Shown in pieces: positions 10,576 to 29,176 of a stretch of 64,000 bases of DNA. Origin of the DNA: Saprospirales bacterium (GTDB taxonomy: Bacteria; Bacteroidota; Bacteroidia; Chitinophagales; Saprospiraceae). Each line of letters opens with the position of its first letter. The stretch's first letter is position 1. Below the pieces are notes generated by a model that was not told the origin of the DNA, did not search any database, and saw nothing but the letters and a program-made list of their open reading frames with translations. The translations under genes were made by a program, and so were the position numbers. The stretch is taken from NCBI GenBank assembly GCA_007693915.1, contig RECS01000105.1, positions 31,422 to 95,421 of the forward strand, read 5' to 3'.

Positions 10576-13149
10576 ATGGCTAAAAACTTACTTATTGTAG
10601 AATCACCCGCTAAGGCCAAAACCATTGAAAAATATTTAGGAAAGGATTTTAAAGTAAAATCCAGTTTTGGACATATACGAGACCTCGATAAAGGCTCGAA
10701 GGGTGTTGACATTGAGAATAATTTCAAACCTAAATATGTTATTAGTCCGGATAAAGCCAGAGTGGTTAAAGAATTGAAAGGGGAGTTAAAAAAAGTTGAA
10801 AACGTATGGTTGGCCACGGATGAGGACCGCGAAGGAGAGGCCATTTCTTGGCATCTATGTCAAGTATTGGGATTGGATGAGAAAACAACACGCAGGATTG
10901 TTTTTCGTGAAATCACGAAAAATGCTATTCAGAAGGCTGTTCAAAAACCAGGAAACCTCGATCTCAACCTTGTAGAAGCACAACAGGCAAGGAGGATATT
11001 AGATCGATTAGTTGGTTTTGATTTGTCAGGCCTTTTGTGGAAAAAGGTTAAAAATAAATTATCAGCAGGTAGGGTGCAATCTGTAACGGTAAAGCTAGTA
11101 GTTGAAAGGGAAAGAGAAATAAATGATTTTGAGGTAAATAATTTCTATAAACTCGTTGCAATTTTTAATGTTCAGCCGGATAAGGGAGAAGTGGTTCAAC
11201 TGAAGGCTGATTTTTGCAGGAGATTACCCGATGAAAAAACTGCAAGACAGGTCCTTGAAAGCTGCAAAGGGGCGATTTATTCTATAACAGACATAGAGCA
11301 AAAGCCTTTAAAGAGAAGACCGTCTGCTCCTTTTACTACCTCCACTCTTCAACAGGAGGCCAGTCGCAAGCTTGGTTTTGCTGTAAAAAGGACCATGATA
11401 GCTGCTCAACGGTTATATGAATCAGGTCATATAACGTATATGAGAACGGATTCAACTATTTTGAGTGATACTGCCATTAAAGCAGCTGCAGCTGTGGTCC
11501 ATGATCAATTTGGTGCAAAGTATCATCAAGCTAGAAAATTTGCAGGAAAGAAAAAATTAAGTCAGGAGGCTCACGAAGCGATCAGACCATCTTATATGGA
11601 CAAGGAATCTGCGGGTTCGGATCGGGATCAGATGCGTTTGTATGAATTGATTTGGAAGAGAACCATTGCATCGCAAATGGCGGATGCTGAGTTAGAAAAG
11701 ACTACTGTTAAAATTGATATTTCCACTGTGAAGCAAGATTATTTTCAGGCTACAGGGGAAGTTTTGATGTTTGATGGATTTTTAAAGGTATACATGGAAT
11801 CCAGAGATGATGATGATGACGATGAGAAAAGCGGTATTCTGCCTCCGTTAAAATTAGGACAAGAACTTCCACTTCTGCATATGACTGCTACCGAACGCTT
11901 TACCAGACCTCCTGCACGATACACAGAGGCATCACTTGTGAAAAAGCTAGAAGAATTAGGCATTGGTCGCCCATCCACTTATGCACCTACCATCACCAAA
12001 ATCATGGAACCCGATCGCGGTTATGTGATCAAGGACACAAGACCTGGGGTAGAGAGAAAATTCAACGTATTGGTACTCCAGGATAATCAACTTAGCGAAA
12101 AAGTAGATAATGAAACTACAGGTGCTGTCAGTAACCGACTTTTCCCCACAGATATGGGTATGGTAGTAACTGACTTTTTGGACAAGTACTTTAAAGTTGT
12201 CATGGATTATAGCTTTACTGCTGAGATTGAAAAGCAGTTTGATACAATAGCAGATGGTAAGCTTCAGAGAGGGAAAATGCTAAAGGACTTTTATGAGGAT
12301 TTCAATGCTGTTGTCAAAAAAACTGAGGAAGAAGCGGACCGTGAGACAGGAGAGCGAGTATTGGGTACGGATCCCAATACAGGGCATTCCGTTTTAGCTC
12401 GAATTACCAGATATGGACCAGTCATTCAGATAGGCAGCAAGGAAGAAGTAGGGGAGGAAGGTAAACCTAAATTTGCTTCTTTGCGTCATAACCAAAGTAT
12501 TGAGACCATTACTTATGAAGAGGCAATGGAACTATTTAAACTTCCCATGGATCTTGGAGAGTATAAAGATAAACCGGTAAGTATTGGTGTAGGTCGCTTT
12601 GGACCATATGTCAAATGGGGAGATAGTTTTATTTCTTTACCTAAAGGAATTGATCCGCTTACTGTTGATTACGACCAAGCAATACCTATAATTCAGGAAA
12701 AAGAGAGGGCAGACAAACCACTTTTTGAATACAATGGTAAACCTGTAACAAAAGGTAAGGGGCGTTTCGGTCCATTCCTTAAGTGGGATGGGATGTTTAT
12801 TAATATTCCGCGAAAATATGACCCAGAAACGATCAGTCAGGAGGAGTCTGTTGAATTGATAAAAGCTAAGATTGAGAAGGAAAAAAATCGGTACATTCAA
12901 CGATGGGAAGAGGAGAAAATAGCTCTGGAAAATGGTCGTTGGGGACCCTTTATAAGATATGGAAAAAAGTCAGTCAAATTGCCTAAGAAAAAAGATGATT
13001 CAAAGTACACACCTGAGGAAGCAGCTGAATTGACCATAGATCAGGTCAAAAAGTTTATTGAAGCGGAAATCCCGGGGGCCTTTAAGAAAAAAGCTGCTAA
13101 GAAAACAGTGAAAAAGCCTACCAAAAAAGCTACAGCTAAGAAGAAGTAA
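10576..13149 (+). CDS. topA: DNA topoisomerase I (type IA) with Lys-rich C-terminus
   Basis: LLIVESPAKAKTIEKYLG, ATDEDREGEAISWHL, YMRTDS catalytic Tyr; repeated GRFGPYVKWG C-terminal topo repeats. Confidence 0.97.
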   Translation: MAKNLLIVESPAKAKTIEKYLGKDFKVKSSFGHIRDLDKGSKGVDIENNFKPKYVISPDKARVVKELKGELKKVENVWLATDEDREGEAISWHLCQVLGLDEKTTRRIVFREITKNAIQKAVQKPGNLDLNLVEAQQARRILDRLVGFDLSGLLWKKVKNKLSAGRVQSVTVKLVVEREREINDFEVNNFYKLVAIFNVQPDKGEVVQLKADFCRRLPDEKTARQVLESCKGAIYSITDIEQKPLKRRPSAPFTTSTLQQEASRKLGFAVKRTMIAAQRLYESGHITYMRTDSTILSDTAIKAAAAVVHDQFGAKYHQARKFAGKKKLSQEAHEAIRPSYMDKESAGSDRDQMRLYELIWKRTIASQMADAELEKTTVKIDISTVKQDYFQATGEVLMFDGFLKVYMESRDDDDDDEKSGILPPLKLGQELPLLHMTATERFTRPPARYTEASLVKKLEELGIGRPSTYAPTITKIMEPDRGYVIKDTRPGVERKFNVLVLQDNQLSEKVDNETTGAVSNRLFPTDMGMVVTDFLDKYFKVVMDYSFTAEIEKQFDTIADGKLQRGKMLKDFYEDFNAVVKKTEEEADRETGERVLGTDPNTGHSVLARITRYGPVIQIGSKEEVGEEGKPKFASLRHNQSIETITYEEAMELFKLPMDLGEYKDKPVSIGVGRFGPYVKWGDSFISLPKGIDPLTVDYDQAIPIIQEKERADKPLFEYNGKPVTKGKGRFGPFLKWDGMFINIPRKYDPETISQEESVELIKAKIEKEKNRYIQRWEEEKIALENGRWGPFIRYGKKSVKLPKKKDDSKYTPEEAAELTIDQVKKFIEAEIPGAFKKKAAKKTVKKPTKKATAKKK

Positions 13150-13175
13150 TTTATCAAGGTATTGAAGAGAATTAG

Positions 13176-13350
13176 CCCGGATTATTCACAAAATTTCTAC
13201 TGCAAAGCCAAACTGTCAGCTATAATAGAAAATGCTCGAAATTTATTATCCTCAAAATTGGGCTACAATTCCTTCGGATAAAAATTTCTGCGCTTCCCAA
13301 TTCTATTGACATTTTTGCTTTTCGAAACGAAATCTCATTAATAATCCGGG
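13176..13350. repeat. MITE-like intergenic repeat, copy A
   Basis: Bounded by CCCGGATTATT...AATAATCCGGG; flanked by TTAG on both sides (13172-13175, 13351-13354); about 89% identical by hand to the reverse complement of 29001-29176. Confidence 0.85.
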
Positions 13351-13381
13351 TTAGGAAGTCTTGAATTTTGGAAAGAAGTAT

Positions 13382-13413
13382 AAAAAAAAGCCGCTTCATT
13401 GAAGCGGCTTTTT
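13382..13413 (-). terminator. Rho-independent terminator after DUF3276 gene
   Basis: AAAAAAGCCGCTTC-att-GAAGCGGCTTTTTT. Confidence 0.85.
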
Positions 13414-13415
13414 TA

Positions 13416-13802
13416 TTACCAACTCATATCTTCTTTATCGATCGATTCGTCTGAATCGCTAGCTTTGTTTTCATCATCATCCTGAGGTATGTAATTTCCT
13501 TCATCATCGTATCTGTCTGCAAATTCGTTGTAGTCATAATTTGGCATCAAATCATTCTTGATGTGATTAACAACGTCTTCTAGGTTTTCAACAAATCGAT
13601 TGAAATCTTCTTTATAAAGGAATATTTTATGTCTGTTGTAACCATTTCCATCAAAACGTCTGGTGCTCTCAGTTAATGTGATATAGAAATCATCACCCTT
13701 CGTTTGTTTAACATCAAAAAAGTAAGTTCTCTTTTTTCCCGCCCTAACTTTCCTGGAGTAAACTGACTCTTTGTTGTAATTATCTTTTTCCACAATTTTC
13801 AA
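13416..13802 (-). CDS. DUF3276 family protein (PUR-alpha-like nucleic-acid binding)
   Basis: VYSRKVRAGKKRTYFFDVKQTKGDDFYITLTESTRR...KIFLYKEDFNRFVENLEDVVNHIK. Confidence 0.85.
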   Translation of the reverse strand: MKIVEKDNYNKESVYSRKVRAGKKRTYFFDVKQTKGDDFYITLTESTRRFDGNGYNRHKIFLYKEDFNRFVENLEDVVNHIKNDLMPNYDYNEFADRYDDEGNYIPQDDDENKASDSDESIDKEDMSW

Positions 13803-29000: not shown

Positions 29001-29176
29001 CCTGGATTATTCATCAGATTTCGCTACGAAAAGCAAAAATGTCAATAAAATTGGGAAGCGCAGAAGTTTTTTATCTGAAGGAATTGTAGCCCAATTTTGA
29101 GGATAACAAATTTCGAGCATTTTCAAGTATAGCCGACATTTTGTCTTTGCAGTAGAAATTTTATGAATAAATTAGG
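29001..29176. repeat. MITE-like intergenic repeat, copy B (inverted relative to copy A)
   Basis: Reverse complement aligns along its length to 13176-13350; one terminus (29171-29176) has decayed. Confidence 0.85.

Follow-up and report, generated by a model that had tools for sequence, protein, structure and literature searches.

What is the 175-bp inverted-repeat element that lies directly behind topA in a Saprospirales bacterium (contig RECS01000105.1), and does its interior matter? The window, meaning the whole stretch of 64,000 nucleotides analysed here, contains this element (copy A) at 13176..13350, delimited by sequence, BLAST, fold and covariance model, with its conserved folding strand (orientation A) on the minus strand. 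Copy A is bounded by CCCGGATTATTCACAAAATTTC at the topA-side end (13176..13197, plus strand) and CCCGGATTATTAATGAGATTTC at the far end (13329..13350, minus strand), and TTAG stands on the left (13172..13175) and on the right (13351..13354) as a 4-bp target duplication of the YTAR type. The upstream neighbour is an open reading frame at 10576..13149 on the plus strand, named topA in an earlier note on this DNA, and 26 bp separate its stop (13149) from the start of the element. The earlier note had described a MITE-like repeat with just these coordinates, termini, TTAG flanks and distance to the topA stop, all of which are borne out by the sequence; the imperfect inverted repeat of ~22 bp that it reported agrees at 18 of 22 positions. 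It is likewise correct that the repeat encodes nothing, as no open reading frame is listed within the 175 bp, which leave room for at most 58 codons. The second copy it placed at 29001..29176 (copy B, plus strand) is real and inverted relative to copy A; its right end has decayed to TGAATAAATTAGG, and its flanks, TTGA and TAAA, retain no duplication.

A genome-wide BLASTN search returned 42 matches and a covariance model 34, so the element is not a two-copy repeat; these counts are lower bounds, because many copies are cut by contig ends and the true number is higher. Most copies in this genome share the same terminal ends. Identical 4-bp flanks, all of the form YTAR (TTAG, CTAG, CTAA, TTAA), border 9 of the ~18 full copies, and some of the other copies have flanks one base off identity. 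All copies checked are intergenic, none interrupting an open reading frame of 90 codons or more. Of the 16 sites of copies L009–L028 with both neighbours identified, 9 are flanked by convergent genes and one by divergent genes, a distribution that suggests removal from promoter regions. The copies display no orientation bias relative to neighbouring genes and therefore give no support for a read-through RNA. One relative (G004) carries a copy that is 90% identical, and two others (G005 and G006) hold a diverged subfamily; a 219-bp member of this subfamily also occurs in the Saprospirales genome (L081 59-277, G000:C122), so that two subfamilies coexist there. A pair of partial matches in G006 (G006:C85), separated by 5.9 kb and considered as the two ends of a large parental transposon, proved to be separate copies with ordinary genes between them, and contig-end fragments of 51–55 bp, considered as a short deletion derivative, could be explained by breaks in the assembly at a k-mer of ~55.

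The ends of the element point to its probable source of mobility. The only PF13701 (IS1380 family) transposase gene in the Saprospirales genome contains a stop and a frame change that disrupt it. It is bounded by TTAA-CCCGCATTATTCACCA at one end and by CTAA-CCCGAAAAATTCATGA, read on the opposite strand, at the other. This broken IS1380 (G000:C15:15980-16967; L080 1230-2596) measures ~1.37 kb and has related ends, with flanks (TTAA and TTAG) one base apart. A genome of the same family (G264) contains four intact IS1380 copies with CCCGGATTATTCACGG at both ends and matching YTAR flanks, and the 13-bp end CCCGGATTATTCA is identical between these copies and the element. Furthermore, an IS1380 of Persicobacter ends in CCCGAATTATTCA and is flanked by TTAA at either end, and the IS1380 end TTAA-CCCGCATTATTCATGA occurs in a Krumholzibacteriia host. 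The shared termini and YTAR flanks identify the recognition ends as IS1380-type, and the search for a parental transposase by way of the termini, which the earlier note had proposed, thus leads to intact IS1380-family elements (PF13701). No transposase was found beside the single terminal-repeat copies in G228, G320, G005:C13 and G006:C47. A tiny element of ~44 bp with the same ends lies between TTAA and TTAG in G228 (L083 2980-3023, G228:C492).

A pattern search for two perfect 13-bp ends lying 138–168 bp apart matched at least 118 stretches. Among the matches listed, the interiors from Pirellulaceae H4, casp150 and Persicobacter are unrelated to copy A, and others align with it from end to end. 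A covariance model built from 28 such alignable elements detected homologous elements of ~176 bp, at 2–84 copies per host genome and with a patchy distribution, in hosts labelled Acidobacteria, Krumholzibacteriia, Gammaproteobacteria, Desulfobacterota, Nitrospirae, Gemmatimonadales, Planctomycetota, Myxococcales and Bacteroidota, which places the conserved-interior family in at least nine phyla. The model found none in Persicobacter and weak terminal matches alone in the hosts of unrelated interiors. Few Bacteroidota carry the family: with strict filters it was found in 2 of 396 genomes. Interiors from different phyla are ~40–60% identical (summarised as 40–60% diverged) and the GC content of the element follows that of its host, from 33% to 65%; cross-assembly contamination is therefore no explanation. 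Of 32 foreign elements flanked by YTAR, ~25 have identical flanks. A search of viral contigs, phages and plasmids did not find the element. Nested in one Flavobacteriaceae copy (L221 5995-6188) is a palindrome rich in GC, GCCCGCCTGCGGAACGGGCAGAC, which may be a further small repeat that inserted there. In the Pirellulaceae H4 bin (L108–L224), a 187-bp MITE is very abundant; it has the same ends, but its interior is unrelated and its duplications are apparently 5 bp long (e.g., GTCAA, CTCAA, TTAAT).

The IS1380 transposase itself is scarce where the conserved interior occurs. It was detected in 1 of 20 non-Bacteroidota hosts (G324–G343), whose draft assemblies may drop multi-copy insertion sequences, and in 3 of 25 hosts once Bacteroidota were added, as opposed to 4 of 4 hosts tested for unrelated-interior MITEs (p ~0.0015, calculated by hand and open to the same loss from drafts). 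This scarcity and the broken state of the IS1380 in the Saprospirales genome count against the IS1380 link. The helper may have been lost in assembly, may be transient or may be a different one, or the element may transfer together with its helper.

Copy A is predicted to fold as one long hairpin. Its minus strand has an RNA fold z-score of -7.6 and its plus strand a DNA fold z-score of -5.2, and in neither case did any of 200 shuffles reach the same stability. Across the family, the strongest covarying columns are confined to one antidiagonal, indicating one hairpin that spans the entire element, and standard interior pairs reach 61% on that antidiagonal versus ~37% at every other offset. Two-sided, compensatory changes occur in all 17 confident interior pairs, with 0 of 500 shuffles reaching these values, and 91% of the cells of these pairs are paired versus 30–48% with slid structures; the covariation leans largely on related copies (~17 effective sequences), and the model derives from these very elements. 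The earlier note had foreseen that the whole unit could fold as one long hairpin, which stands, although the AATTGGG/CCCAATT arm pairing it named is not the predicted one.

Two internal loops of this hairpin are nearly invariant. Close to the ends, GA faces GNA, and close to the tip, GNA faces GA. On the minus strand of copy A, the outer loop consists of GA at 13322..13323 (model positions 28–29) and GCA at 13201..13203 (model positions 151–153, inside YGYARYAG), and the central loop of GAA, the GNA side, at 13273..13275 (model positions 77–79) and GA at 13252..13253 (model positions 101–102, in TTGAGGA). A middle loop can be read on the same strand from GCA at 13289..13291 and GA at 13236..13237, and a GCA/GA loop is predicted in the sister copy L009.

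The two strands are far from equivalent. In 89 of 90 elements the RNA fold of orientation A is more stable than that of the complement (weighted mean 17 kcal/mol), with orientation assigned first from sequence homology and later from the model and hence not wholly independent of the fold. At well-paired positions of strand A, G-U amounts to 11.4% versus 1.5% for A-C, and to 4.9% versus 1.7% when three conserved G-U columns are removed. Mismatches are purine-purine on strand A and mostly pyrimidine-pyrimidine on the opposite strand. Loops of the G..A/G..A type occur 2.39 times per element versus 0.06 times in simulated noisy palindromes, an enrichment of ~40-fold, and 0–0.23 times per element in other, unrelated MITEs; the simulated control takes mismatches to be random, at a rate that was chosen, and G-A loops are favoured by the energy model, which softens the numbers but not the strand contrast.

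Taken together, these findings are best explained by an IS1380-mobilised MITE whose interior is a selected single-strand hairpin, a reading to which, on sequence data, a probability of about 0.72 can be attached. IS1380-family transposases would recognise the terminal CCCGGATTATTCA and move the element as a non-autonomous transposon, which would insert at YTAR with a 4-bp duplication. The interior would belong to a single ancient family that occurs in many phyla, and selection would maintain it as a long one-strand hairpin with G..A/G..A purine loops at fixed places. Its folded form is probably an RNA transcribed from strand A or, failing that, the single-stranded DNA of strand A. We infer that the hairpin helps the element itself to spread or to be tolerated and does not act for topA, to which nothing ties it specifically.

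As for the form that folds, RNA is more likely than single-stranded DNA. A mobile structured RNA, that is, a ~176-nt GA-loop hairpin carried into at least nine phyla by borrowed IS1380 ends and selected as RNA, is a tentative proposal that falls a little short of even odds, and selection on such an RNA may concern propagation of the element or a function for the host. That the folded strand acts instead as single-stranded DNA, for example when transposition is coupled to replication or as a site bound by a host protein or the transposase, is possible but somewhat less probable. Both the strand specificity and the tandem sheared G-A pairs would be compatible with hairpins of single-stranded DNA no less than of RNA; the terminal repeats belong to the same hairpin, and the lack of orientation bias towards neighbouring genes points the same way. 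However, as a DDE family, IS1380 should act on double-stranded ends, and a preference for G-U wobble pairs is typical of RNA.

Both of these forms presuppose a selected fold. An ordinary IS1380 MITE might instead possess its hairpin as a by-product, with arms kept complementary by template switching, and this we consider unlikely. Long palindromes do undergo correction by template switching, and the same-terminus MITEs of Pirellulaceae, casp150 and Persicobacter spread equally well with unrelated interiors. Yet such correction would erase mismatches, whereas the purine loops stay at fixed positions across phyla. Neither the division of purine-purine and pyrimidine-pyrimidine mismatches between the strands, nor the excess of G-U over A-C, nor the better folding of one strand in nearly every element agrees with a by-product. 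Template-switch repair may mimic covariation but gives neither strand preference nor kept mismatches, and a selected single-strand fold is therefore the best reading.

Two further explanations concern the origin of the repeat. Insertion at YTAR with a 4-bp duplication is a habit of the IS5 group, and an IS5-group parent was the first guess; known Bacteroidetes MITEs in Porphyromonas also match IS5-family ends (PMC4596501). This origin is now highly improbable: the ends are identical over 13 bp to those of IS1380 elements that enclose PF13701 transposases, they differ from the Porphyromonas IS5 ends printed in the same paper, and the guess was dropped once IS1380 elements with identical ends turned up. 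A regulatory 3' element of topA, for which the position of copy A just past the stop and before a terminator-like hairpin (13382..13416) might speak, is refuted by at least 34 copies beside unrelated genes and by the closest relative (G001, downstream neighbour protein 94% identical), where the conserved terminator directly follows topA at an empty site. Every test that the earlier note had proposed for a MITE (copy number, YTAR flanks, IS1380 ends and the empty site) thus supports its assignment of the repeat behind topA to this class of tiny non-coding transposons, and its reading falls short in treating as unremarkable an interior that is a conserved, strand-specific hairpin across phyla.

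The interior hairpin is previously unlisted. A scan of ten loci against Rfam up to E=5 gave sub-threshold leader and sRNA hits alone over the element (in L027), and no paper on its end sequences was found in the literature searched, a scope that leaves out most subscription journals and ISfinder. MITEs are usually viewed as deletion debris with inconsequential interiors and a range of one genus; here a fold is kept in at least nine phyla, which suggests that a mobile element is maintaining a structured molecule, either RNA or single-stranded DNA. It thus becomes testable whether such a molecule can be carried by a non-autonomous transposon and be needed by it, and the mobile-RNA reading, if true, would define a new class of transposon-borne non-coding RNA. 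In practice, YTAR together with CCCGGATTATTCA ends and the GA/GNA loop pair forms a strict signature for annotating many unlabelled copies.

Several known systems resemble the element in part. REP/BIME sequences are mobile intergenic hairpins with mismatches, moved by RAYT transposases, and REPs are not known to possess either terminal inverted repeats or target duplications, in both of which the present element differs. Structured RNAs in Rfam have in common with it a covarying, strand-specific fold, but no Rfam family matches. Among IS1380 insertion sequences (PF13701; e.g., IS1247, ISEcp1), the intact members described here have the same 13-bp ends and YTAR duplications, whereas the element spans 175 bp without a transposase and its interior is unrelated to the IS1380 gene. 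IS1247 has a 16/13-bp inverted repeat and a 5-bp duplication (PMC3281130), and short inverted repeats with duplications of 4–5 bp are common to the IS1380 family and the element. The unrelated-interior IS1380 MITEs (Pirellulaceae H4, Planctomycetota casp150, Persicobacter) share its termini and similar size but lack the conserved GA-loop hairpin, and the Pirellulaceae duplications are apparently of 5 bp. Finally, the MITEs and BrickBuilt elements of P. gingivalis are likewise short, non-coding, multi-copy and intergenic, with target duplications and the terminal repeats of autonomous insertion sequences (PMC4596501). Those elements were described within one species and have IS5-type ends (PMC4596501), whereas the interior fold of the present element is conserved on one strand across at least nine phyla.
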